This document shows, in pieces, positions 2,403-14,709 of a stretch of DNA of 64,000 bases (position 1 is the stretch's first letter; every line of letters begins with the position of its first letter). The position numbers and the translations under genes were made by a program. The stretch is from positions 1 through 64,000 of the forward strand of contig JAAXWO010000012.1 in assembly GCA_013334965.1 (NCBI GenBank), written 5' to 3'. The notes below the pieces were generated by a model. It was given only the letters and a program-made list of their open reading frames with translations. It had not been told where the DNA came from and searched no databases. The stretch is from Chlorobiaceae bacterium. GTDB lineage: Bacteria > Bacteroidota > Chlorobiia > Chlorobiales > Chlorobiaceae.

Positions 2403-3134
2403 TTATTTTACGATTATAGGAGCTAAAAAACTGTAGCCTGATCCATGGAATGTTTTGATCGGAATCCTGAAGTCGAGCTCCTTTTTTTTACGGCGCAAAC
2501 GATGAATCAGGGCGTCCAGGGCCCGATTGCCTAAATCGTCATTGTCGTAATCGAGGGTTTTCAGCAATGTTTGACGTTCAACGAGAGTGTTGGGGGTTAA
2601 GGCCAATTTATCAAGCAGGTCAAACTCTTTTGACGTGAGAGTCGTTTTGTCGCCATTTGGTGTGAACAGCGTACAGTCTTTGCGTAGCAACACCCATTGT
2701 GTCAGTTTCGGGGGTGACGCTTCCTGCTCGTTATGTATCAGTTCCCTGGTAATCGAGTAGCTTGTTTCAAGACGTCCGAGAATACTGTTCAGCGATGCAG
2801 TCAGTTCAGCGAAGTCGATCGGTTTGATTAAATAGAGATCGGCTCCTGAACGGTACGCAGTGATCTTGCTGTCCAGGGACGATTGGGCAGTAAGCATCAC
2901 TATGCGCATGTCTGTATTTTTTCTGATGTACTCAGCAAGGACTAGCCCACTCTGGTCAGGTAAGCCGATATCAAGAATGACCAGCGGGAACTGCTGTTGG
3001 GCAATGCTCTGATAGAACTCCAATGCCGATGCGGTGCCAGTGACATCGAATCCTGCCAGAGTAAGGTATTCCACAAGGCTTTCACGGAAATCACATTCGT
3101 CCTCAACAACGATAATTTTCTTTTTTTCTGCCAT
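2403..3134 (-). CDS. OmpR-type response regulator
   Basis: The protein has an N-terminal receiver (about 1-120) and a C-terminal winged-helix DNA-binding domain (about 150-243). Acidic-pocket residues Glu11 and Asp12 and the phosphoacceptor Asp55 (VILDIGLPD) are present, as is a lysine in LIKPIDF. The winged helix has LTSKEFDLL and GSGYSF. The gene lies about 70 bases downstream of the large sensor kinase on the same strand, so they are probably a pair. I chose the ATG at 3134 (MAEKKKI), which puts the first strand in the usual place. In-frame starts at 3149 (ATG) and 3152 (TTG) are possible, and none has a good Shine-Dalgarno. Targets are unknown; the pigment gene cluster is next door. Confidence 0.85.
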   Translation of the reverse strand: MAEKKKIIVVEDECDFRESLVEYLTLAGFDVTGTASALEFYQSIAQQQFPLVILDIGLPDQSGLVLAEYIRKNTDMRIVMLTAQSSLDSKITAYRSGADLYLIKPIDFAELTASLNSILGRLETSYSITRELIHNEQEASPPKLTQWVLLRKDCTLFTPNGDKTTLTSKEFDLLDKLALTPNTLVERQTLLKTLDYDNDDLGNRALDALIHRLRRKKKELDFRIPIKTFHGSGYSFLAPIIVK

Positions 3135-3205
3135 AAGGAGAAGGCCCATCAATTGTTATGAGAGATGTCAATTCTTTCGCAATTTTTCTGACAGGATTAA
3201 GCTTT

Positions 3206-6200
3206 TCAATCGATATCCTTTGTCAGCGGCAATCTAACTTTCGCTTCAACACCGTACTCAATTCCTTTCAGGCTCACATGTCCATGATGCTGCTCGATAA
3301 TATTTTTAACAAGCCATAATCCGAGACCCGCCCCGGCAGTATTCACGGCATTGCTGCCTCGCCGATACTTATCGAAAAACTCTTTTGCTTCTTTACGGGT
3401 GATACTCTCTCCCTGATTTCGTATGGTGATTATCGCCTCTTCATTATCGATGCGGCAATCCAGTTCGATAGGTGAATCCTTGCGGGAATATTTACGGGCA
3501 TTATCAAGAAGGTTGAAAATGGCCATTTTGAGATGAGCAGGTTCACCAATGGTTTCTGCACTGCCAAAGTGTTCAGAGTAAAGTATTGATCGTTCAGGCC
3601 ACATCGCTTCGAAAGCCTCCACTTGGGAAGTAATGAGCGGAGCTATCTGAAACCTGGCCAAGTCTACCGAATCATATGACTCAAGTATCCGGCTTTCCTG
3701 AATTGAGACCTCCATTACCTCCACCAGTCGGTCGATTGCACGTTTAATTTTATTTAATTCAGCGCTATTGGAGAACGTCGGGCTGTTTTGCTTCAGATCA
3801 ATAAGGTCAAGGTTTCCACGAATGATTGCCAGCGGAGTGCGGTATTCATGTGAGATCATGCTCAGGAAACGACGCAGTCGCTCTACTTCCTGTTGCAGTT
3901 GCCTTGTTCTTTCGGCAACGGCATTTTCCAGTTGGTAGATGTTTGCCTGCTGCAACAATTGCAGGGTGATATCCGTCAGCATAACGAGCAGGCAGGTTTT
4001 GCCATTCATCGTTATGTACTCTGCAGAAAACATGATCTCCATCAGCTGCCCGGATTTCTTCCGAAACTCGAATTTCGAGTTGGTTATTCTGCCCTGTTCA
4101 AGAAGCATTTGATTGATGATCTCTTGATCGTCAGGGTGTCCGTAGAGTCCAAGATCTTTAATTCGCCTGCCTATGACCTCTTCTCTGGATAGGTCGAAGA
4201 GTTTAAGCCATGAGGAATTGACATCAAGCAACTGGCCATCCTCAGTATCTTTGATGGCGATGGCAATCGGCGAGAATTCGAATATGTTTCTGAATTTGAG
4301 TTCACTGTCCCTCAGGAGCAACTCTGTATTTTTTCTGTCGGTGATATCCTGTACGATGCCGGACTGGCGGCTTGGGTTGCCGGTCATGTTCAGGTCAAAG
4401 GCGCCGAAAACCCAGATCCATCTAAGCTTGCCGTGAACAGTGACAATACGGCACTCGAAGGTATAATTTTCCTGTTTTTCGAAAGCTTTTTGTATCAGTG
4501 CCTCAACCCAATCACGATCGTCCTGCATGACGTGGCCGAGAAACTTGTCGAATGACCAATCATCAAGGGGTTTTTCATATCCGAAAATGTGCGCGTGTTC
4601 CTGTGTCTGATGTGCGATACGACTTATGAGGTCCAGGTCCCAAACACCCAAATGGCTTTTTTGAAGGACGAAGTTAAGTCGCTCCTGGCTTTTTCTCAAT
4701 TCCTCATCCTTGAGTTTGCGCTCTGTAATGTCCATGACTGTTCCGCGGTAACAGATCGTCTCGCCGTCAGCGTTTTTCATCGGGACGCCGCGACATTTGA
4801 GCCAATGAATCGAGCCGTTACGGTGGCGAACGCGATATTCGACATTGATATCCATATTCCGGCTGGCTGCTCCCAGTACGTTCATGAAAGTTATTTCCTG
4901 ATCCTCAGGATGAACGTGGGTAGCACAGAGCTTGTGTGAGTGAGGCATACTATGCGGCGCCATATCGTATAAAGTCCATATTCGGTCCGACCATATAACG
5001 GTATCCGCCTTCAGGTCCCATTCCCAGACGCCAGTGTTTGTGGCTTCCAGTGCAAAATCATATCTCGCCTGGGTTTCGATGTGTCTATTTTCCGCCTCCT
5101 TGCGCTTGGTGATATCGATAACGGTTCCGATGTAACGAATCTTGTTGCCCTGATTATCGCGAAAGGGTTTGCCGCGTGACATCAGCCAGTGTATGGAACC
5201 ATCAGGGTAACAGACGCGATATTCGACATTCAGTTCGATATCGCTGGATGCTGTCTCGGTAACAGTGGTTATGGTATAATCCCGGTCATCAGGATGAATG
5301 GTATTTGCCCAAAGCTCGAAAGTCGGGTTTTCGGAACGAGGCTCCAAACCATATAATGGCCATATCTCATCAGACCAGGAATTCTCTCCAGTCGACAAGT
5401 CCCATTCCCATACACCGGCCTGGGCAGCCTCAAGTGCATGGCTGAGCCTCGCCTTGTTCTGGATAAGTTCAAGTTCGATCTGTTTTCGTTCGGTTATATC
5501 GATAATCGCTCCTATATAACGTATCACTCTGCCTTCGGGGTCACGCAGAGGCATGCCCCGGGAGGTGAGCCAGCGAACAGAGTCGTCAGGGCGGCAGACG
5601 CGATATTCGACTGATGCCGCATTCCCGCTACTGACAGCATCCTTGATGACTCTTGATACCATCTCCCGATCTTCAGGATGCACCGTGTCCACGCAGAGCT
5701 GATGGTTCAAAGGCTCACTGTTTGGTTTGATCCCGTACAATGTCCATACCTGATCCGACCAGCTCAATTCGTCAGTTTGTGCGTTCCATTCCCATATGCC
5801 GGAATGTGAAGCGTCCAGGGCGTAGCCGAACCGAATTTTGCTCTCAATGAGATCAAGTTCAAGTTTTTTGCGCTCGGTGATGTCGGTGATCGTTCCGATA
5901 TATCGGTCGATCTGACCGTCATCCATGAAGACCGGTTTGCCGCGGGACATGAGCCAGTGGACTGAGCCGTCAGCGTGACAGACGCGATATTCAGCGTTGA
6001 GGTCACCATTATTGGTGGCAGTCTCGGAAATGCTCTGCATAATTCTGTCCCGGTCTTCAGGATGAACCGCATTTTTCCATAGGCTGACCGATGCAGTACT
6101 GTTTTTTCTTTCCAGACCGTACAGCTTCCATACATCATCAGACCAGTATTCCTCATCGGTTTTCGGGTTCCATTCCCAGACTCCGGAATGAGCGGCTTGC

Positions 6201-7018
6201 ATCGCAAGTGTTAATCGGGTCTGGTACTTGTTGAGGTCCTCCTCTATCTTTTTTCGCTCAGTGATATCGATGCCGATGGATACCAGGCAGGGCTTGCCGT
6301 CGATCTGAACCCTTTTTGAGCGGGTCATCAGCCAGAAGGGTTCTGTACTTCCATGAGGCCGGACCTCGATTTCGCTATAATCGTCAACCCCTGTGTTGAG
6401 TGTTTCCAGGAATTTCTTTCTGAGATATGCCATGTCGTTGGAACCGAAGAAATCGACGGGAGCAACAAGTGGCGACTTCTCGTCGGTTGAGCTGAAAAGC
6501 ATATCATGGGCGTATCTGTTCCATGCAATCAGGTGCAGGTCGGCATTCATAATGGTGGCAGAACAGGGAATCGCATCAAGAAGCGCAGTTTTCATTTCGC
6601 GCTCTTTCTGCAACTTCCTGTCAATCATCTTTTCCTCGGAGATATTCTGGATGATGATCAGCAAACTGTTTATATCCCCTTCCGCAGACAGTACCGGGTT
6701 GATAGAAATCTTCCAGATGTCAGTGTCATCTTCAAAGATTCTGCGCGTCCCGGAGTTGAGAACCAAGGCACACTTCTCTCTAAGGTGTTCAACCAGCATC
6801 GGTACTCTCAGTACGGTGAGGATCAGGTCATATATATTGGTGTTAATGCACTCCTTTGGTTGTTTCCCGAACCTTGACGCGAACATCGTGTTGATATTGA
6901 GGATCAGTCCGTCCGGTTCCATTATAAAGGCAGCATCTGGGAGTGCTTCCATTATTCCGAAAACAGTATCGTTGACCTTGTCGCAGTCTGATTGGATGTT
7001 ATTATGAGGCATTGGCAT
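3206..7018 (-). CDS. Large sensor histidine kinase with about eight PAS domains
   Basis: This is a cytosolic-looking kinase of about 1270 residues with no clear membrane segments. Two divergent PAS domains (to about residue 280) come first. Four very similar PAS/PAC units follow (about 290-800), each opening like SGVWEWN with a WSD..W.LYG motif and ending in DITERK. Then come a more diverged PAS, a final PAS (about 935-1050), a HisKA domain with the phosphoacceptor His in MISHEYRTPL, and an HATPase with NLLDNARKYS and GAGLGLW. Such PAS arrays usually sense redox, light or small ligands, and the ligand is not evident here. The ATG at 7018 (MPMPHNN) is preferred over the TTG at 7066. Confidence 0.88.
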   Translation of the reverse strand: MPMPHNNIQSDCDKVNDTVFGIMEALPDAAFIMEPDGLILNINTMFASRFGKQPKECINTNIYDLILTVLRVPMLVEHLREKCALVLNSGTRRIFEDDTDIWKISINPVLSAEGDINSLLIIIQNISEEKMIDRKLQKEREMKTALLDAIPCSATIMNADLHLIAWNRYAHDMLFSSTDEKSPLVAPVDFFGSNDMAYLRKKFLETLNTGVDDYSEIEVRPHGSTEPFWLMTRSKRVQIDGKPCLVSIGIDITERKKIEEDLNKYQTRLTLAMQAAHSGVWEWNPKTDEEYWSDDVWKLYGLERKNSTASVSLWKNAVHPEDRDRIMQSISETATNNGDLNAEYRVCHADGSVHWLMSRGKPVFMDDGQIDRYIGTITDITERKKLELDLIESKIRFGYALDASHSGIWEWNAQTDELSWSDQVWTLYGIKPNSEPLNHQLCVDTVHPEDREMVSRVIKDAVSSGNAASVEYRVCRPDDSVRWLTSRGMPLRDPEGRVIRYIGAIIDITERKQIELELIQNKARLSHALEAAQAGVWEWDLSTGENSWSDEIWPLYGLEPRSENPTFELWANTIHPDDRDYTITTVTETASSDIELNVEYRVCYPDGSIHWLMSRGKPFRDNQGNKIRYIGTVIDITKRKEAENRHIETQARYDFALEATNTGVWEWDLKADTVIWSDRIWTLYDMAPHSMPHSHKLCATHVHPEDQEITFMNVLGAASRNMDINVEYRVRHRNGSIHWLKCRGVPMKNADGETICYRGTVMDITERKLKDEELRKSQERLNFVLQKSHLGVWDLDLISRIAHQTQEHAHIFGYEKPLDDWSFDKFLGHVMQDDRDWVEALIQKAFEKQENYTFECRIVTVHGKLRWIWVFGAFDLNMTGNPSRQSGIVQDITDRKNTELLLRDSELKFRNIFEFSPIAIAIKDTEDGQLLDVNSSWLKLFDLSREEVIGRRIKDLGLYGHPDDQEIINQMLLEQGRITNSKFEFRKKSGQLMEIMFSAEYITMNGKTCLLVMLTDITLQLLQQANIYQLENAVAERTRQLQQEVERLRRFLSMISHEYRTPLAIIRGNLDLIDLKQNSPTFSNSAELNKIKRAIDRLVEVMEVSIQESRILESYDSVDLARFQIAPLITSQVEAFEAMWPERSILYSEHFGSAETIGEPAHLKMAIFNLLDNARKYSRKDSPIELDCRIDNEEAIITIRNQGESITRKEAKEFFDKYRRGSNAVNTAGAGLGLWLVKNIIEQHHGHVSLKGIEYGVEAKVRLPLTKDID

Positions 7019-7066
7019 GTATAAGAACGTATAAATAGTCTGATTAATACTGGATGAACACTTCAA

Positions 7067-7386
7067 TTTGAGGGCTCATACGTTATCCATTGCTATCCAT
7101 TATTTCGTGGACATCTAGAGAAAAACTACATGTTATTTAACAAATAATCTTATAACAAGCGACTGGGCCTGTAGGAATTATCTCATCAGTGAGACTTGTT
7201 ACTTTTGTATGATTAATGGGTGTCTGTGAGCGTATGCTCAGGATAGCGCTGGATGAGTCTGTCGGGGGAGGCCGGCTTTTCCGCTCAGGAAAAAGCCGGG
7301 AATGACAAGGGGTGATTGATGACAATCGGCTTTTCAGGTCTGGCGTACCTGAATGCTGATTTGCCGGCTGTTTGGATTGCCTTGAT
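7067..7386. other. Intergenic spacer with an imperfect hairpin
   Basis: No convincing gene is present. There is an imperfect inverted repeat at 7272-7299 (CCGGCTTTTCC with GGAAAAAGCCGG, one bulged base), downstream of the pigment synthase stop. It has no T-run on either strand, so it may be a dispersed palindromic repeat rather than a terminator. Confidence 0.5.
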
Positions 7387-8490
7387 TTACATGTATTTGA
7401 TCCCGATGAGGGTCGCAACAATCATCTGATTGATCAGAAACATGATGTTGTTGATCATCGAGAACCTTAGAAATGCATTGTGTTCATGAATTGCACTTTT
7501 GCCGATCGTGTGCCCAAAACCTTCGGTCACAGCTGTCTGCATGAAAGAGATGCCATTTTGCGGGTCGCGGTAAAGTTTTACCTGTATGACGATATCGACA
7601 AGCAACGACAGAAGGACGAGATACATCAGGTAGTGAAAACCCCAGTCCCATGCCAGCCAGGCAAATACGGCGAACACAAGATCCACAATGACAAACGCGA
7701 CAAGAAAGGTATTCTTGGCTCCGATCATAACCGCAAGGGATTTCATCCCTCCCTTTGCGTCACCTTCCTGCGATTTGAAGTCATTCATAATGATGAGCGC
7801 CATGCCCATGAAGAAATTGAGGCCTGCAAGCCAGATCACTTCCGGTCTGATGTCGCTGAAAAACGCGTTTGCAGAAAGCCAGGTAATCACCCCGTAGGAA
7901 ATTCCGACAGCCGGGGCTGAAAGAAGGATATTCTTTTTCAGTTTGAGTGGCGGTGCAGAGTAAACGAACCCGAGGAGAAGCCCTGTCGATAGTGAACAGC
8001 ATAGGATCAAGCCTCTGATGCCGCCAATATGAATGCTGAGCCAGATGCCGGAAATCACTGCGATGGCGAGCACGATAGTCCAGTTCCACAGCGCTTCCTT
8101 CTTGGTCAGCCGTCCTGATGGAATCGGGCGTGTAGGTTCGTTGATCATATCGAGTTCAAGATCGTAGTAATCATTGACCGATTGGCTGAATCCGGTGCCG
8201 AGCGGTCCATAGATCATGAAAAGGGCAAAAAGCATCAGGTAATCGTGAACGCTCGAATGCATTGCGCCGGAGGCCATGACTCCTCCTGTAAGGCAGGGAT
8301 AGACGCTGATCCACGTTACGGGATCCAATATCTCAATATGTGCCTTTATTTTGTCGACAAAGCGAATGCGAGTGGGTGCTGTTGACATAAGATTTTTTTC
8401 GGAAAGGCTCCTGACGCTGCAACACTCACCCGTCAGGAGATCATTTAAACAATCGATTTCGATCGATTGACCAGGAGTGACATTATTCAT
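7387..8490 (-). CDS. (Bacterio)chlorophyll synthase, BchG/BchK/ChlG family (UbiA superfamily)
   Basis: This membrane prenyltransferase attaches the isoprenoid alcohol tail to (bacterio)chlorophyllide. The first Asp-rich motif is NDYYDLELD (106-114), followed by INEPTRPIPSG, the signature of chlorophyll synthases rather than quinone prenyltransferases. A second Asp motif, NDFKSQEGD, is near residue 240. Many hydrophobic segments are visible. Green sulfur bacteria have three paralogs (ChlG, BchG, BchK). The chlorosome-gene context favours BchK, the chlorosome pigment synthase, but sequence alone did not let me decide. The ATG is 2 bases after the stop of the radical SAM gene, so translation is probably coupled. 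A second start at 8388 (MSTAPTR) would remove an unusual 34-residue extension. Confidence 0.85.
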   Translation of the reverse strand: MNNVTPGQSIEIDCLNDLLTGECCSVRSLSEKNLMSTAPTRIRFVDKIKAHIEILDPVTWISVYPCLTGGVMASGAMHSSVHDYLMLFALFMIYGPLGTGFSQSVNDYYDLELDMINEPTRPIPSGRLTKKEALWNWTIVLAIAVISGIWLSIHIGGIRGLILCCSLSTGLLLGFVYSAPPLKLKKNILLSAPAVGISYGVITWLSANAFFSDIRPEVIWLAGLNFFMGMALIIMNDFKSQEGDAKGGMKSLAVMIGAKNTFLVAFVIVDLVFAVFAWLAWDWGFHYLMYLVLLSLLVDIVIQVKLYRDPQNGISFMQTAVTEGFGHTIGKSAIHEHNAFLRFSMINNIMFLINQMIVATLIGIKYM

Positions 8491-8492
8491 TA

Positions 8493-9899
8493 TCAGAGAA
8501 ATGCCTCAGCTTTGAGTTTTCGAGTAAAGTTGTTCATTGCCAGGTTGGCTAACCAAACCCAGTTCAGAGGCTTGCCGTACATTCGTTTCATGATTGAACG
8601 CCCTTTGTAGACCTCCTGCTGCAGCTTGACGAAATTATCCAGCAGTTTTTCGCCGGAGATCTTTTTCGGCTCAAACATATAGTGGTAAGTGTCGTACTTG
8701 TCCCAGTTGAAGTGACGGATGCGTGGCTTCATTTCGTCGTAGTAGGGAGTTCCCGGGAAAGGCGTTACCAGCGAAAAGACCGGAAACTCGATCCTGTTCT
8801 GCATGATGAAGTCGTAGGTGGCCTGGAAGCTTTTTTCGGAGTCGTCATCGAAGCCGAACATGAAGTAGCCCTGGATTGCAACGCCGTTATTATGCAGGTT
8901 ACTTACGACAGTCGAGTAGTTCTGGAGCCTGTTGGCTCCCTTGTTCACGCTTTTGAGCACATCGGGGTTAAGTGACTCGAAGCCTATGCTCATCAGGTCG
9001 CACCCAGAGCGGCCTGCGATCTCAGCCACCTCAGGCTTGTGGAGGAAGTTCATTGATATATTGGCGTTCCAGTGGACTCCGAGCTTGGCCATCTCCTCGA
9101 GGAGTTCGGTGAAGTATTGGGGACGAAAGCTGATGTTGTCGTCCATGAACGAGAAGTTCACGTTCCTTTTGCCAAGTCGGTCCTGATGGCTTCTCATTTC
9201 ATCCAGCACAAGATCAATCTCCCTGTACCGGTAACTTTTGCCGTAAACTGTCGGCGTGGTGCAGAAATTGCATCCAACCGGGCAACCTTTCGTGGCCAGG
9301 ATCGGAATGCGCTGGCTGTACCTGTTCGCGTTTTTCGAGTTAAGGGCAAAACTGAAATCAGGACTTTGCATCGCGGTCATCGGGCGCAACGTCTGTGCCC
9401 GATAGATACGTTTCATTGTCCCCTGGATGATGTCGGATGCCAGTTCGTTCCATATCGATTCGACTTCGCCGTAGATAACGCTGGTGCAGTGTTGTGTGGC
9501 CTCGTCGAGCAGCATGGTTGGATGGACTCCGCCGAGCAATACAATTTTTTTCTGTGAAAGGGCCCGGTCGCCAATACGGTAAGCCTTGTTCGCGTTGAGC
9601 GTGCGTGAAGTTATGGCTACTATATCGTATCCGGAAAAGTCTTCAGGGACCTGGTCCCCAGTTCTTTCATCGATGAGAGTGACGTCAAACTGTCTGCTGG
9701 CGAGAGTGGCGACCATGATCAGGTTCAGGGGCATGCTTACGCTTCCTGAATCGACCATCATACTGGTTTCGCTTTTCGGCTGGATCAACAGCCATTTTTT
9801 TCGGATTTTTTGCTTTGCGACAACCCGGTCCAGGGTTTCCGGTAATCTATCATTGAGGTGATTCGGCGCTTCAACGTTGTGATGATAATCTGCGGGCAT
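8493..9899 (-). CDS. BchE-class radical SAM enzyme, candidate bacteriochlorophyllide-modifying (BchQ/BchR-like)
   Basis: The first ~170 residues look like the B12-binding-type domain of BchE-class enzymes. A radical SAM core follows with the 4Fe-4S cysteines Cys206, Cys210 and Cys213 in KGCPVGCNFC. Family members in green sulfur bacteria include BchE (ring closure) and BchQ/BchR, which methylate the C-8 and C-12 side chains of chlorosome pigments. The gene is in an apparent operon directly before a pigment synthase, which supports a pigment role, but the exact member is not settled. The canonical DxHxxG cobalamin motif is not visible. A B12-type radical SAM enzyme of other function is the alternative. 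Confidence 0.75.
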   Translation of the reverse strand: MPADYHHNVEAPNHLNDRLPETLDRVVAKQKIRKKWLLIQPKSETSMMVDSGSVSMPLNLIMVATLASRQFDVTLIDERTGDQVPEDFSGYDIVAITSRTLNANKAYRIGDRALSQKKIVLLGGVHPTMLLDEATQHCTSVIYGEVESIWNELASDIIQGTMKRIYRAQTLRPMTAMQSPDFSFALNSKNANRYSQRIPILATKGCPVGCNFCTTPTVYGKSYRYREIDLVLDEMRSHQDRLGKRNVNFSFMDDNISFRPQYFTELLEEMAKLGVHWNANISMNFLHKPEVAEIAGRSGCDLMSIGFESLNPDVLKSVNKGANRLQNYSTVVSNLHNNGVAIQGYFMFGFDDDSEKSFQATYDFIMQNRIEFPVFSLVTPFPGTPYYDEMKPRIRHFNWDKYDTYHYMFEPKKISGEKLLDNFVKLQQEVYKGRSIMKRMYGKPLNWVWLANLAMNNFTRKLKAEAFL

Positions 9900-9960
9900 A
9901 CCTGTTTACTCTGCTAATGGATAAAACTGATTTCCGAATTGACGTGCGCAGGTAAGCTGT

Positions 9961-10218
9961 TTATTTGCAGAAGCGGGATTGAATCTCCTTGCTGGGACTT
10001 GCGTAACCTGAAACTTTCGGGGAGCTTCCCCTGAAGTTTTTGCTCATGGTGCTGCCACCATAAAGATGCGGATAAGCATTGGCGCCGAGCCTTTTGGTGC
10101 ACTTGCCGACATTTTCGAGATAATCTCCGACGACCCACCAGTGCCCGTCAATAAAGACTTCAAGAAGACGGCCATAAGCTGTGGCCCCCTGAACGAAAGC
10201 TCCTTGCATATTATTCAT
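9961..10218 (-). CDS. Small protein of unknown function in the pigment operon
   Basis: This 85-residue protein is not one I recognise. It is rich in Gly, Tyr and aromatics, with a FIDGHWWVVGDY segment near the start and a basic, Ser/Lys-rich tail. No signal peptide or membrane helix is seen. It lies 61 bases upstream of the radical SAM gene and 49 bases downstream of another unknown gene, all leftward, so it is likely co-transcribed with them. The ATG at 10218 has no obvious Shine-Dalgarno. The overlapping 74-residue frame at 9914-10138 looks like a shadow. Confidence 0.55.
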   Translation of the reverse strand: MNNMQGAFVQGATAYGRLLEVFIDGHWWVVGDYLENVGKCTKRLGANAYPHLYGGSTMSKNFRGSSPKVSGYASPSKEIQSRFCK

Positions 10219-10267
10219 GTTCTAAGGGTTATGATGTTAAACGGTATCGAAAGCCTATTTCTCTGAA

Positions 10268-10750
10268 TCACTTGCGAATCCTGTTTCCCCAGAGCGAGAA
10301 ATCGCTGTCGGAGTCCGAATCTTTTTCTTCCCTGGCTTTAACTGATTCTTCGGGATGCTTTTCCGATAAGCTATTGAAGACTTCTGTTCCGATGATCTTG
10401 AGGCACTCTTCAAGGCTTTCAGCCGCCGGAACCTTGTCTCGCAAAAGCTCATTTTCGGGGAGCTCGTTCCCAATTTCTTCGCTCATATTTCTGACTGATT
10501 GTAACGTTGGATCATGGACGCCTGTGGTGAATCCGCATCGCCCTTGCGGGTGTATTTCGATAAAGCCAAGCCCGGATTCGACCGGCTCGTCCTTTATACG
10601 TTCCATGTCCAGATGTTTAATGTCTATTCGTGGACTGTGGTCGTTTCCTGACAAGAGTGTTTTGGGGGCTGGTGTACCGGCAACTTTGATCGCTAATCGA
10701 GAACCTGACTTTGGCTCTGTGGTCTTTTTGTTAAGCCAATTGAAGGGCAT
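10268..10750 (-). CDS. Unknown acidic protein, first gene of the pigment operon
   Basis: About 160 residues, hydrophilic, with an acidic and Ser-rich tail (EEKDSDSDSDFSLWG). No known domain is recognised. The first ~90 residues contain RLAIKVAGTPAPKT and an HPQGRCGF motif with the protein's only evident conserved-looking Cys. The ATG at 10750 follows TAAGGTG at a good distance; an in-frame GTG at 10756 is less likely. It is the first of four consecutive leftward genes ending in the pigment synthase. A rightward frame of similar length overlaps it but has no good start and is rejected. Confidence 0.55.
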   Translation of the reverse strand: MPFNWLNKKTTEPKSGSRLAIKVAGTPAPKTLLSGNDHSPRIDIKHLDMERIKDEPVESGLGFIEIHPQGRCGFTTGVHDPTLQSVRNMSEEIGNELPENELLRDKVPAAESLEECLKIIGTEVFNSLSEKHPEESVKAREEKDSDSDSDFSLWGNRIRK

Positions 10751-11258
10751 AAACACCTTAAATTATATTTAATCAGTCACTTAGGACATTTTTTAGAAGC
10801 ATTTCTGCTCTGAAATTTGAGCTTCGTTAATCTTGATATTTCAAATTATAATATTTGTGTTAAATTTAATACAAATATTATAAATATTACTTTTTGTGAT
10901 AAAAAACGAGTGCGGTTAAGCGGGATAATTGAATGGGATCGGTTTTTTAAGTAGCATAAAATTAATGACTTAGAGTTTTCTGCCTGTGGTGGTTGTGGTA
11001 GGCGTGTCTGTTTGAAGCCGTAAAGAGCCGAAGGATAAAGAGCATCTCTTTAACGACCCTTACCGAGATTGGGATGAATAAAGGGTGCCGAGTCGGATCG
11101 GAGTGTAATAAACCGCATCGCATACGAGAACGAAGATTCCTGAAGGAAGGATATTCAGTGACTGGATCGTTCCGCTATAAGGAAGGTCGCAAGAATGTCG
11201 TAAGAATCTATTTTTTAAGCTTTTATAAGTATTTTTTTTAAACATAACCCGGACAACA
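10751..11258. promoter_or_regulatory. Divergent intergenic region between the pigment operon and csmB
   Basis: About 500 bases separate the leftward pigment operon from rightward csmB. The left half (about 10790-10980) is strongly AT-rich. A small hairpin AAAGAG-CAT-CTCTTT lies around 11036-11050. Both promoters should be here. I could not assign -10/-35 boxes with confidence, and no believable gene is present. Confidence 0.5.
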
Positions 11259-11486
11259 ATGGCAAACGAAACATCAAACGACTTCACGAGCGCGTTGAAC
11301 AATCTCGCAGAGACGGTTGGCAAACTTGGTCAGATGCAGATTGATTTAGTCACCGAAGGGATTAAATCACTGACATCAGCCATAGAGCCGTTGAGCAAGG
11401 GTTCCGTCGAGATGGCAGAGGGAGCCGTCAATGCCTTGAACCAGGCATTGCAGGGCATTACATCGGCGATAGCTCCGAAAAAGTAA
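11259..11486 (+). CDS. csmB: Chlorosome envelope protein B (CsmB/CsmF family)
   Basis: CsmB-family proteins sit in the lipid monolayer around the chlorosome, the light-harvesting body of green sulfur bacteria. The 75-residue length matches the family. The protein is an amphipathic alpha-helical repeat (ALNNLAETVGKLGQMQIDL, later VNALNQALQGITSAIAPKK), and the SAIAPKK end is typical as I remember the family. CsmF is a close paralog and cannot be excluded. The gene has its own strong terminator and starts a rightward run of small genes. No clear Shine-Dalgarno precedes the ATG. Confidence 0.75.
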   Translation: MANETSNDFTSALNNLAETVGKLGQMQIDLVTEGIKSLTSAIEPLSKGSVEMAEGAVNALNQALQGITSAIAPKK

Positions 11487-11499
11487 GCCTCAGGGCAGT

Positions 11500-11538
11500 C
11501 ATGAAAGCGCCTCTTCGGTGGCGGGAGGCGCTTTCATG
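11500..11538 (+). terminator. Rho-independent terminator after csmB
   Basis: A perfect 14-bp stem (11500-11513 with 11525-11538, CATGAAAGCGCCTC arm) is followed by GTTTTT. It sits 14 bases after the csmB stop, so csmB can be monocistronic. Confidence 0.85.
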
Positions 11539-11568
11539 GTTTTTATCACCACTAAACCATAATGCTCT

Positions 11569-11877
11569 ATGTCTGGAACGGATACGTTACCAATCCAAAT
11601 CTCTCCCGATGGGGTTAAAGGTCTTGCGATGATGGCTCCCGTCATTGGATTCCCACTGATTGTTCACGCTTTGACAGGGGCAGTTATCACAGGAGTTGCG
11701 GGCGTTGGTTTGGCGGCGATATCATCGGTGATGGGGCCTTTCAAAGAGGATATTTTACAGGCGACCAAGGGGATGCTTGTCAGGCAGATACCTTGTGACA
11801 GCCATGATGTTCCTGTGAATTCGGTTATAGATATCGTTTCCGTTACTGAGAACCCGAGTTGTCATGAATCAGTATGA
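11569..11877 (+). CDS. Small hydrophobic protein, possible chlorosome envelope protein
   Basis: This 102-residue protein has a central hydrophobic Gly/Ala-rich stretch (about 18-65, including TGAVITGVAGVGLAAISSV) that could form a membrane hairpin, then a polar tail with two Cys. CsmC, CsmD and CsmH of chlorosomes have similar hydrophobic regions. The link rests on this character and on the csmB neighbour, not on a motif. It starts 31 bases after the csmB terminator. It could instead be an unrelated membrane protein. Confidence 0.5.
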   Translation: MSGTDTLPIQISPDGVKGLAMMAPVIGFPLIVHALTGAVITGVAGVGLAAISSVMGPFKEDILQATKGMLVRQIPCDSHDVPVNSVIDIVSVTENPSCHESV

Positions 11878-12061
11878 TTTAGTGGTTTTCGTATGAGGTG
11901 CAAATATAAACAGCCCTGAACGGAGAGGCGTTCTTCTCATTGCTGAATATCCACCAGTTATTCTTTCTGAAGAATCCTGCTGGACGCCATATGTATACTT
12001 TTGCTTATCAATAAAGCGTAAGATTTGTGGGATTTCAGAAAACCATTTAACCGAAATAGCC

Positions 12062-12298
12062 ATGTCAAGAATTTTGTGGATGCAGGCGATGAGGGGGGCT
12101 TGGACTTCATATGTGAAGAAGATGAATAAAAATATGAAGCCTGATAAATTTGACAGGTATCTCAATCAGGAGATCGATATGGGAATGAAGCTCGAAGAGT
12201 TTGCCGAGTCAGTATTTATACAGGGTTTTGTCGCTGGTGAGAAGTATGCCAAGAGTTTTACGATTGGAACAAAGAAGTGCGAGCCTGAGCTGAACTGA
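12062..12298 (+). CDS. Small hypothetical protein between chlorosome-type genes
   Basis: The 78-residue protein is not recognised. It is charged, with a Lys-rich N-terminal third (MRGAWTSYVKKMNKNM) and an acidic middle (MGMKLEEFAESV), probably mostly helical. No membrane segment or signal peptide is seen. It lies in a run of small rightward genes with 100-200 base spacers. Coding status is likely but not certain. Confidence 0.45.
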   Translation: MSRILWMQAMRGAWTSYVKKMNKNMKPDKFDRYLNQEIDMGMKLEEFAESVFIQGFVAGEKYAKSFTIGTKKCEPELN

Positions 12299-12419
12299 GT
12301 GTTGAGCAGTACATGATTTCCTTTTTTTCAGGCATTCAATAATAATGGGAAGATCTGGATGTGTATGAACGGGAAGAAGGTGCATTTTGTAAACCATCAA
12401 AGTAACGGAGATAGTTGAT

Positions 12420-12656
12420 ATGAGCCAGTCAAATCCTGCTGACCTGGTCAAAAATGCTGTGGGTATTGCCGGCGGTGCCGCGTTGATCGCTCCTGCGGCT
12501 CCTCTTGCGCCCCCTATCCTGCATGGTCTTGCCGGAATAGCAGTGATAGGGTTTGGATTGTTTGCAGCCGGTTCGCTGGTAATGAAGGGCGCTGAAGCAC
12601 TTTCAGGAATGGGTAATTCATTGAAACAGAAGGGGGCTGCCCGCAAGTCAAGCTGA
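12420..12656 (+). CDS. Small hydrophobic protein, possible chlorosome envelope protein (CsmC/CsmD-like)
   Basis: This 78-residue protein is built almost entirely of Ala, Gly, Pro and Leu through residues 10-60 (GIAGGAALIAPAAPLAPP, then GIAVIGFGLFAAGSLVM), with a short basic tail (KQKGAARKSS). The pattern suits a protein buried in a membrane or the chlorosome monolayer, as in CsmC/CsmD/CsmH. I know of no diagnostic motif to confirm this. Position 0.9 kb from csmB supports it. Confidence 0.5.
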   Translation: MSQSNPADLVKNAVGIAGGAALIAPAAPLAPPILHGLAGIAVIGFGLFAAGSLVMKGAEALSGMGNSLKQKGAARKSS

Positions 12657-12808
12657 CCGTATTATGTTTTTCACCCGATATGTCAGTGTCTGCCATTCGT
12701 TTTTTTTAATCAGCCTGACCATTTCATTTCGCAAGCATGAATTTCGTGCAGGGCGAATCTGTTGAGAAGTTGAGCGCGCCGTATTGATGAGCGGTATTGA
12801 GCAGATCA

Positions 12809-13780
12809 ATGTGCCGTTATTTAGTCACGGTTGAGAACCAACACATGCATTACCACCTGCCATTGAGCTGGATACGGACTGAGGCACTCTGTCCGGTTTA
12901 TCGCGATATCACACTGCCATTATCGGGGACCCGGTGGATAACCTATGCAGACGTCCCTCACCATTATTCACTCGATATACTCCAGGAAGACCTCTCGGCA
13001 TCCTTTCCTGACGGGTATGTCTTTCGTGGATGTACTCCCGAAATGGGGGCATATTTCGTGGATCAGAACTGTCGGACATTGAGAACCGGAGCTGAAGCTG
13101 TCCTGGATTTGCAAGGTTCTCACCTGGAGAGGAAAACGGTCCAAAGCTCTCTCATGAGAGGTAGAAAACAGGGTGTTGTCGAAGAGATTGAGCTGACCGA
13201 CGGAAATATGCTGCGTTTTGAGCAATTCCATGCTGAAACAACGCACGGCGGTAAACCTCAGCTCCAGCATGTATTCAGGGGACAACCTTCCAGGCGATGT
13301 CGTGCTTTTGTGTTTCGTACGTTTGGCGGTCAGTGGCTCGGAGCCATGACACTTTCGCCAAGAGGGAACCTGGAAATGCATACGGAGCTGATGTTAAGGC
13401 GCCGGAACGCTCCAGGAGACATTATGGAGTGTCTTGTGGCTGGAATCTTTGAGACTCTCAGATCTGAAAATATGGGTGAATGGAGTCTCGGAGAGGTGCC
13501 TTTCATGACCTTGACGCAGGGCTCAACAGATTTGCTTACCCCTATGGAGCAGCTTATGGTCGGAATTGTCTCCCGATGTAAACATGCGTATGACTTTGAA
13601 GGTCTTTACCGTTTCAAAAACAAGTTTTCACCGAAATGGCGTCCCATCACGCTTTGTGTAAGCGAAGAGCCAACAACGCTATTGCTGACTGAGCTTGCTG
13701 TAGCCATGGGATTTGCCGGGTTGCTGGTACATGAATCCCTTGACTTGCTTGGACAGTCAATCCGGTTTGGGTTTAAATAG
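12809..13780 (+). CDS. DUF2156-like (LPG synthase C-terminal type) acyltransferase-fold protein
   Basis: About 323 residues, resembling the DUF2156 domain found at the C-terminus of lysylphosphatidylglycerol synthases, a GNAT-like fold that transfers aminoacyl or acyl groups. The recognisable part is the end, with GLYRFKNKFSPKWRP near residues 260-275 (family signature F-K-x-K-F-x-P-x-W). The integral membrane flippase of true MprF is absent, so this is a soluble stand-alone domain. Start is uncertain: TTG at 12797 or ATG at 12809. It is followed by an AbiEii-like nucleotidyltransferase gene, suggesting a two-gene unit. Substrate unknown. Confidence 0.65.
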   Translation: MCRYLVTVENQHMHYHLPLSWIRTEALCPVYRDITLPLSGTRWITYADVPHHYSLDILQEDLSASFPDGYVFRGCTPEMGAYFVDQNCRTLRTGAEAVLDLQGSHLERKTVQSSLMRGRKQGVVEEIELTDGNMLRFEQFHAETTHGGKPQLQHVFRGQPSRRCRAFVFRTFGGQWLGAMTLSPRGNLEMHTELMLRRRNAPGDIMECLVAGIFETLRSENMGEWSLGEVPFMTLTQGSTDLLTPMEQLMVGIVSRCKHAYDFEGLYRFKNKFSPKWRPITLCVSEEPTTLLLTELAVAMGFAGLLVHESLDLLGQSIRFGFK

Positions 13781-13872
13781 GTCAGGAGGTGATGGTTTTT
13801 AATCGTCATGCACCTCCATGCCAAAAGTTTCTGACAAATGATCTGAGGCCTTTGCAGACAGGAGTATCCGTT

Positions 13873-14709
13873 ATGAAGGTGATGAGACAACTGCTTGCGA
13901 GATTGGCGTCTGCCGACTCGGAGAGAATTACGAACGGGGTGAAGTCTGCGATGCAGGATGTCGTCCTGGACGGGTTGCAGCGAAACGGTTTTTTCGAGTA
14001 TGCTGTCTTTTGTGGAGACAGTTGCCTGAGGATAGCGTATGGATCGCCAAGACACTCTGGCAACCTTGATTTCTGTTTACTTGAATCCAATGGAGATCCC
14101 CCTCTTGAGAGTTACTTCAATGTCCTGACGACAGAATTTGCCTCACTTGGTATGGACGTTGAAATTACTCTCAACAAGAAGATGGTTCGATTGGGGGCGG
14201 AAGCCTTCTTGCTCAGGCACAGATATCGTTCTTTTGAACTCGCTGTGATTGGAGATAGTGCCCTGAAAATACCCCTGCATCTCTATACCCTTCCATTCAA
14301 ATGGGTTACTATTGAAGAAAAACAGTTGTTTGAGCCGCGCCAATTTTCCATCAGATGCTTTGCCTTGTCAGACCTTTTCATTCTGAAAATGAACACGTTA
14401 CTGTTCAGTAGCGTGAAATCAGAGGTTTCCGGGAGAGATTGGTTCGATTTCGAATGGTTTATAACGAACCGGGTTCCATTGAATTTGTCTCATCTGATTG
14501 GTCAGTTCCTTCAACCTGGCGGTTTGAATGCCCAGCGGTTTTCAGAACAAGAATTTTATGACCGTTTAGAGAGCCGAATTAACGCCATTGACATCGCGGT
14601 GTTAAAAAAAGATGTTTCCCCATTAATCAAATCTCCAGAAGCATTGAATGTCTGGTCACAGAGTTACTTCAGGGAACTGACGAATCAACTGATCATCATC
14701 CGGCAGTAA
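13873..14709 (+). CDS. AbiEii/AbiGii-like nucleotidyltransferase, altered active site
   Basis: A 278-residue protein of the nucleotidyltransferase family that includes AbiEii toxins. The core is CGDSCLRIAYGSPRHSGNLDF (two parts: Gly48-Gly57 and Arg60-Phe67), matching the usual GGT-LR--YG-R-S-DLDF. Here the first metal-binding Asp of DLD is Asn64, and the GG pair is Gly-Asp. GRDWFDFEWF further on is also a family feature. No AbiEi-type antitoxin gene is adjacent; the upstream gene is the DUF2156 protein. The ATG at 13873 has GGAG eight bases upstream and is preferred over the GTG/ATG at 13789/13792. It may be catalytically impaired or use another role. Confidence 0.7.
   Translation: MKVMRQLLARLASADSERITNGVKSAMQDVVLDGLQRNGFFEYAVFCGDSCLRIAYGSPRHSGNLDFCLLESNGDPPLESYFNVLTTEFASLGMDVEITLNKKMVRLGAEAFLLRHRYRSFELAVIGDSALKIPLHLYTLPFKWVTIEEKQLFEPRQFSIRCFALSDLFILKMNTLLFSSVKSEVSGRDWFDFEWFITNRVPLNLSHLIGQFLQPGGLNAQRFSEQEFYDRLESRINAIDIAVLKKDVSPLIKSPEALNVWSQSYFRELTNQLIIIRQ

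Follow-up and report, generated by a model that had tools for sequence, protein, structure and literature searches.

The window, a 64,000-nucleotide stretch of Chlorobiaceae DNA, contains a divergent gene island at positions 2403-13780, with a left arm (2403-10750, minus strand) and a right arm (11259-13780, plus strand). Counted outward from the promoter region, the left arm encodes P160 (10268-10750), a 160-residue Nif11-type family protein with an acidic C-terminal stretch and the C-terminal motif FSLWGNRI; an 85-residue CsmE-like baseplate paralogue (9961-10218); a predicted BchR-type B12/radical SAM methyltransferase paralogue (8493-9899); a UbiA-type paralogue of the bacteriochlorophyll (BChl) c synthase BchK (7387-8490); a multi-PAS sensor histidine kinase (3206-7066), identified by PAS repeats, HisKA and HATPase_c domains and synteny; and an OmpR/PhoB-type response regulator (2403-3152) with Response_reg and Trans_reg_C domains. 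The right arm encodes a small 75-residue protein (11259-11486), a hydrophobic Gly/Ala-rich protein of 102 residues that belongs to an island family (11569-11877), a conserved 78-residue protein (12062-12298), a hydrophobic 78-residue protein (12420-12656) and, as the last conserved gene of this arm, an LPG_synthase_C-domain protein (12797-13780; PF09924, E 1.4e-18).

Intergenic gaps at the head of the left arm are short, being 49 nt between the P160 and baseplate genes, 61 nt between the baseplate and BchR genes, and 2 nt between the BchR and BchK genes. The P160 gene, which heads the leftward operon, was assigned a start at the ATG at 10750, with a GTG at 10756 as the alternative. A preliminary description of this DNA had placed two leftward open reading frames (10268-10750 and 9961-10218) before a radical SAM gene and a synthase gene and had noted a Shine-Dalgarno sequence for the first. 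That order was correct, and a Shine-Dalgarno-like AAGGTG lies upstream of the ATG. The surroundings of these two genes are, however, more interesting than the genes themselves.

Among the right-arm proteins, the 75-residue product is named by resemblance, as we take it to be similar to CsmB/CsmF. The conserved 78-residue protein carries an invariant LEEFxE..F..GF.AGE.Y pattern and is modelled by AF2 as three helices (pLDDT 76.5); no Pfam family matched it at E ≤ 0.01, and a fold search with it gave no similar fold (best E 3.1). The family of the hydrophobic 78-residue protein also occurs once in genome G019. CsmC or CsmD identity for the hydrophobic right-arm proteins was considered and not established.

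Baseplate and pigment-enzyme paralogues

The preliminary description had listed both small proteins as unknown. This holds for P160, which belongs to a lineage-specific family, but not for the 85-residue protein, which by family assignment is a chlorosome baseplate protein. It matched Bac_chlorC (PF02043), scoring 120 bits (cut-off 25; E 4.1e-35), as well as the solved CsmA chain in the PDB (2k37/5lcb; E 3.9e-9 for 2k37). Pairwise identity was 77-78% to CsmE-type copies and 42-48% to CsmA, and four Bac_chlorC genes were found in the window genome. The protein shares with CsmA and CsmE the BChl a site G24-H25-W26 (in IDGHWWVVG) and the C-terminal GSSPxxSGYAxPxKE tail. PMC4992139 describes H25 as the BChl a ligand position and the C-terminal side as the part in contact with FMO. 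Cys replaces the Gly39 of CsmA and the Thr of CsmE in the island copy, which further differs in having GDYLEN instead of GDALEN and in the grouping of its gene with those for pigment enzymes and the two-component pair. The Cys was present in 20 of 21 full-length island baseplate copies, the exception being L092 (Gly); a role for this residue is speculation. A tree of these short sequences gave modest support (SH-aLRT 91) for a group of canonical Thr-type CsmE copies that excludes the island ones.

When the GTDB contig set was searched with a DNA pattern for the Cys-type motif, 27 stretches matched, each from a record of Chlorobi, Chlorobium, Chlorobaculum, Chlorobiaceae, Chlorobiales or Pelodictyon, including Chlorobium ferrooxidans DSM 13031, Chlorobium sp. 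N1, Chlorobium sp. L304-S-6D, Chlorobaculum sp. 24CR and Pelodictyon luteolum CIII. As further copies lie outside full islands (L104-L106, L108, L111, L114, L119, L120 and L126), the motif alone does not define the island. L114 and L126 hold extra Cys-type baseplate genes together with CsmB-like and hydrophobic envelope genes, without BchR or BchK, in genomes that additionally carry a full island.

The radical SAM enzyme had been called BchE-class. We rejected this identity, the score with the NCBIfam BchE model (TIGR02026) being 80.4 bits against a cut-off of 481. The enzyme contains a CPVGCNFC motif, matched PF04055 with 66.8 bits, and scored 26.1 bits with the B12-binding family PF02310 (cut-off 32.1). 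It was 77% identical to a locus at 1.242 Mb of genome G019 and 30% identical to one at 1.684 Mb. We take G019 to be C. tepidum and these loci to be CT1320/BchR and CT1777/BchQ, respectively. By family scores, identities and tree, the island enzyme is thus assigned to the BchR type, closest to the C-12 and not the C-8 methyltransferase. PMC7242693 gives BchR and BchQ as the C-12 and C-8 methyltransferases and BchK as the BChl c synthase. The neighbouring "chlorophyll synthase" is a UbiA-type synthase identified as the BChl c synthase BchK, as it matched the BchK model NF009058 with 597 bits (cut-off 494).

Because the same genome has another BchR on contig C6 (G000:C6:35530; 84-85% identical to the island copy) and another BchK on contig C12 (68% identical), the pigment operon in the window is a paralogue cassette. 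The island copies resemble canonical BchR and BchK in sequence family and predicted activity; they differ in lying together with one another and with genes for the baseplate and envelope, whereas the canonical copies are located elsewhere. In the BchK tree, all 25 sampled island rows fell in one clade (SH-aLRT 97). In the BchR tree, copies from islands that lack P160 formed one clade, while those from P160-bearing islands were mixed with canonical copies, the window genome's own included. A monophyletic origin for all island BchR is therefore unsupported, and gene conversion or late duplication is likely. For the window genome, the 85% identity of its island and canonical BchR and their proximity in the tree suggest that gene conversion shaped the pair.

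These comparisons bear on whether the island merely adds gene dosage, with extra copies giving more chlorosome and no qualitative change. The two BchR copies, at 85% identity, are probably interchangeable, as such a reading would have it. The island BchK and baseplate copies, in contrast, form distinct, long-kept groups, the latter with its near-invariant Cys, and both are tied to a dedicated two-component pair. We consider simple dosage unlikely.

Recurrence and proposed control of the island

Recurrence was assessed in 86 Chlorobiaceae genomes, comprising the window genome (G000) and 85 others, and family HMMs were used to map 31 regions chosen for their matches (L063-L093). Gene set and divergent order were shared across the mapped island loci, which fell into two classes, one with P160 and one without (L082-L088). 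Individual members were lost in some loci: BchR in L078 and L081, BchK in L080, and both in L089 and L091. The conserved 78-residue protein was the best island marker, with profile matches in 35 of 86 genomes. In the 31 of these 35 genomes whose context was viewed (the others being G026, G041, G047 and G048), it lay, by coordinates or mapping, next to other island genes. A second BchK was found in 33 of 86 genomes, 28 of which also had the marker (P 2.5e-11), a count drawn from related genomes and so not from independent observations. The link to chlorosome pigment genes proposed in the preliminary description thus stands, as homologues adjoin pigment genes in many other Chlorobiaceae and are not absent from such positions elsewhere.

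At E ≤ 0.01 the kinase had matches to PAS, HisKA and ATPase families only, with no phytochrome domain among them. Of the 32 island loci scored, 28 had both the kinase and the regulator gene next to it (L066 and L176 derive from one genome, whose island is in two pieces). Every kinase-bearing locus also had the regulator; neither gene scored in the other four loci, all of which end at contig edges. That this pair regulates the island is what such linkage suggests.

Between the divergent arms lies a 38-bp near-perfect dyad (10846-10883). With a half-site matrix derived from four regions, 12 of the 15 remaining P160-type regions scored above at least 98% of shuffles, as did two of seven P160-less regions, with a third at 97.5%; these regions are related, and the counts are not independent. 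Scans for sigma-70 promoters and terminators gave no more sites than in shuffled sequence. The bchK and kinase genes are separated by 320 nt containing a hairpin-forming stretch, and the regulator pair may therefore form a separate transcript. The inverted repeat in this gap, CCGGCTTTTTCC...GGAAAAGCCGG at window positions 7270-7340, has no clear T run and is a possible attenuator or transcript end.

P160 and the Nif11 domain

At E ≤ 0.01, P160 had 24 matches in the 86 genomes, 21 of them no more than 1.5 kb from a further island gene; the family HMM did not recover the remaining three, which were among the weakest (E 0.003-0.006). This conservation indicates that P160 and the 85-residue reading frame are genuine genes. 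P160 was split or truncated in L073-L075. An alignment of 20 members showed an N-terminal MxFxWLxK, a (C)GFxTG motif, a middle domain and a C-terminal FxLWGN[RK]I in which WG is invariant. At E ≤ 1, Pfam Nif11 (PF07862) matched 12 of the 20 (best 1.3e-9) and NCBIfam TIGR03798 matched 13 (best 3.5e-10). The window copy matched neither model, being too degenerate to score. From these alignments we regard P160 as a lineage-specific family that is Nif11-type in most aligned relatives. The AF2 model of the window protein was of low confidence (pLDDT 61.5, pTM 0.26) and placed helices at residues 81-95, 101-106 and 113-131, and a PDB profile search returned only a weak Nif11 match (9zn4, E 0.2).

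In the preliminary description, both small proteins were proposed to aid the radical SAM step or the delivery of pigment, and the P160 and baseplate genes are indeed tightly linked to BchR. The 85-residue protein is, however, Bac_chlorC, by family a structural baseplate antenna protein and not an enzyme accessory. P160 is absent from the islands L082-L088, which have BchR and BchK, and is present without BchR in L081, L089 and L091; it is therefore not needed for the radical SAM step. We regard that proposal, taken as a whole, as very improbable; of its parts, pigment delivery by P160 is a possible one.

The Nif11 domain shared by most P160 relatives raises the alternative that P160 is a precursor of the Nif11-like leader peptide family (PF07862, TIGR03798), whose Nif11 domain would recruit a maturase and whose C-terminal segment would become a modified peptide. 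RiPP precursors of the N11P type do occur beside RiPP genes in C. luteolum (PMC2887384). In contrast to the leader peptide family, P160 has its domain internally, behind approximately 80 residues, and the stretch from residue 100 to the LWG motif lacks G-[GAS] in 15 of 18 scorable members. Conservation peaks at the C-terminus, leaving no variable core, and no LanM, YcaO or peptidase-transporter gene was recognised among the island genes, where the radical SAM enzyme is BchR-type. As the cleavage site is absent in most members and the C-terminus is conserved, we have mostly rejected a RiPP precursor role and consider it decidedly unlikely.

A second Nif11 architecture was found in L092 (8199-8501, minus strand), where a Nif11 domain is followed by the last 23 positions of Bac_chlorC, a CsmA-type C-terminal tail. 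Bac_chlorC scored above its cut-off in this protein and Nif11 below (E 0.002). Proteins of this type were also present at L130-L137 and L139, and in six of the loci L092, L130-L137 and L139 the gene directly adjoins a Bac_chlorC gene or fragment. Relatives of the L092 protein occurred in 12 genomes (including G036 and G080, with a partial match or one split over two frames), none of which has the 78-residue marker. A chlorosome-family or island gene lay within 1.5 kb in 11 of the 12 loci L130-L141, with none at L141. The more distant Nif11 loci L142-L144 had no baseplate or CsmB-like gene; a regulator was matched at L142 and a kinase at L144. The island links Nif11-domain proteins to chlorosomes, and no paper joining Nif11 with a chlorosome term was found in the literature searched.

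BChl e and the proposed function of the island

The brown C. limnaeum (G001) carries the P160-less form of the island, and we assessed whether the island BchK and BchR might serve BChl e/f synthesis. As a candidate for bciD, the BChl e gene, we used a weak PF04055 match in C. limnaeum located beside BchF and a gene that we take by resemblance to be CruA/B-like, its product having no Pfam family. A further radical SAM gene, at L223, was dropped as bciD, its neighbourhood containing neither bchF nor cruB. The arrangement of the candidate follows the bciD-cruB-bchF cluster as described in PMC3613366. Matches to it of at least 86% identity occurred in nine of 86 genomes (one partial), and three genomes had both the bciD candidate and the island marker (9 and 35 of 86, respectively; Fisher P 0.73). 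The window genome had no bciD match. It has two BchF genes, as does G024, while C. limnaeum has three.

The island is thus separate from bciD. Like the bciD-cruB-bchF cluster of brown green sulfur bacteria, it is an accessory chlorosome-pigment gene cluster, but it has different genes, a different location in C. limnaeum and no co-occurrence. In favour of a BChl e role, one review (PMC9066304) assigns BChlide e/f esterification to BchK2, and PMC7242693 states that BchK2 is present in every BChl e producer. The published BchK2 clade may or may not be the island BchK clade. As the marker is not associated with bciD and the window genome lacks both bciD and a third BchF, we rejected a BChl e function for the island, which we consider extremely unlikely.

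The reading that we favour, with somewhat more confidence than doubt, is that the island is an auxiliary chlorosome kit under two-component control, serving to remodel the baseplate, the envelope and the pigment, in which the Nif11-type P160 acts as an assembly adaptor. As the island holds spare chlorosome parts and its own sensor-regulator pair, green sulfur bacteria may rebuild their antenna on a signal. The multi-PAS kinase and OmpR-type regulator would control the divergent gene set, in response perhaps to light dose or redox state. The GHW site of the alternative CsmE-like protein would bind BChl a, the envelope would draw on the CsmB-like and small hydrophobic proteins, and the second BchR and BchK would make and esterify C-12-ethylated BChl c/d. 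P160 may work specifically with the alternative baseplate protein; most likely, it would serve as an adaptor in baseplate or envelope assembly through its Nif11 domain and conserved ends. The sequences establish the gene identities, the recurring arrangement, its linkage to the two-component pair and its separateness from bciD; control by the pair, the signal, the remodelling and the adaptor role are inferred. More tentatively, a PAS two-component antenna-acclimation programme might swap in a second kit of Cys-bearing baseplate protein, envelope proteins, BchR and BchK, with Nif11-domain proteins, which elsewhere are RiPP leaders, co-opted on two or more occasions to help assemble the baseplate, in one case by gaining the CsmA C-terminal tail; we hold this fuller version to be possible and somewhat doubtful.

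In the FaRLiP cluster of cyanobacteria (PMC4658448), paralogous antenna subunits are likewise linked to their own sensor and regulator genes. The island differs in encoding chlorosome and not photosystem parts and a PAS kinase with no phytochrome domain found, and the likeness is one of gene content. No published description of the island was found in the open-access literature searched.

Reviews either call the roles of BchK paralogues in green sulfur bacteria unknown (PMC7242693) or attribute them to BChl e. The island largely separates these paralogues from BChl e and gives them a context of their own regulator, baseplate and envelope proteins. Their role could be tested in cultured island carriers such as C. 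limnaeum and C. ferrooxidans. The former (DSM 1677) carries an island that lacks P160; in the latter (DSM 13031) the island has P160, and its locus showed no BchK.

C. limnaeum has two BchQ-BchF pairs (G001:C1:465818 and 2443846), one by the bciD candidate and the other approximately 14 kb from its island. Just downstream of the island in the window, positions 13789-14709 encode an AbiEii-family nucleotidyltransferase (PF08843), a weak relative of which (27%) adjoins the island in L077.
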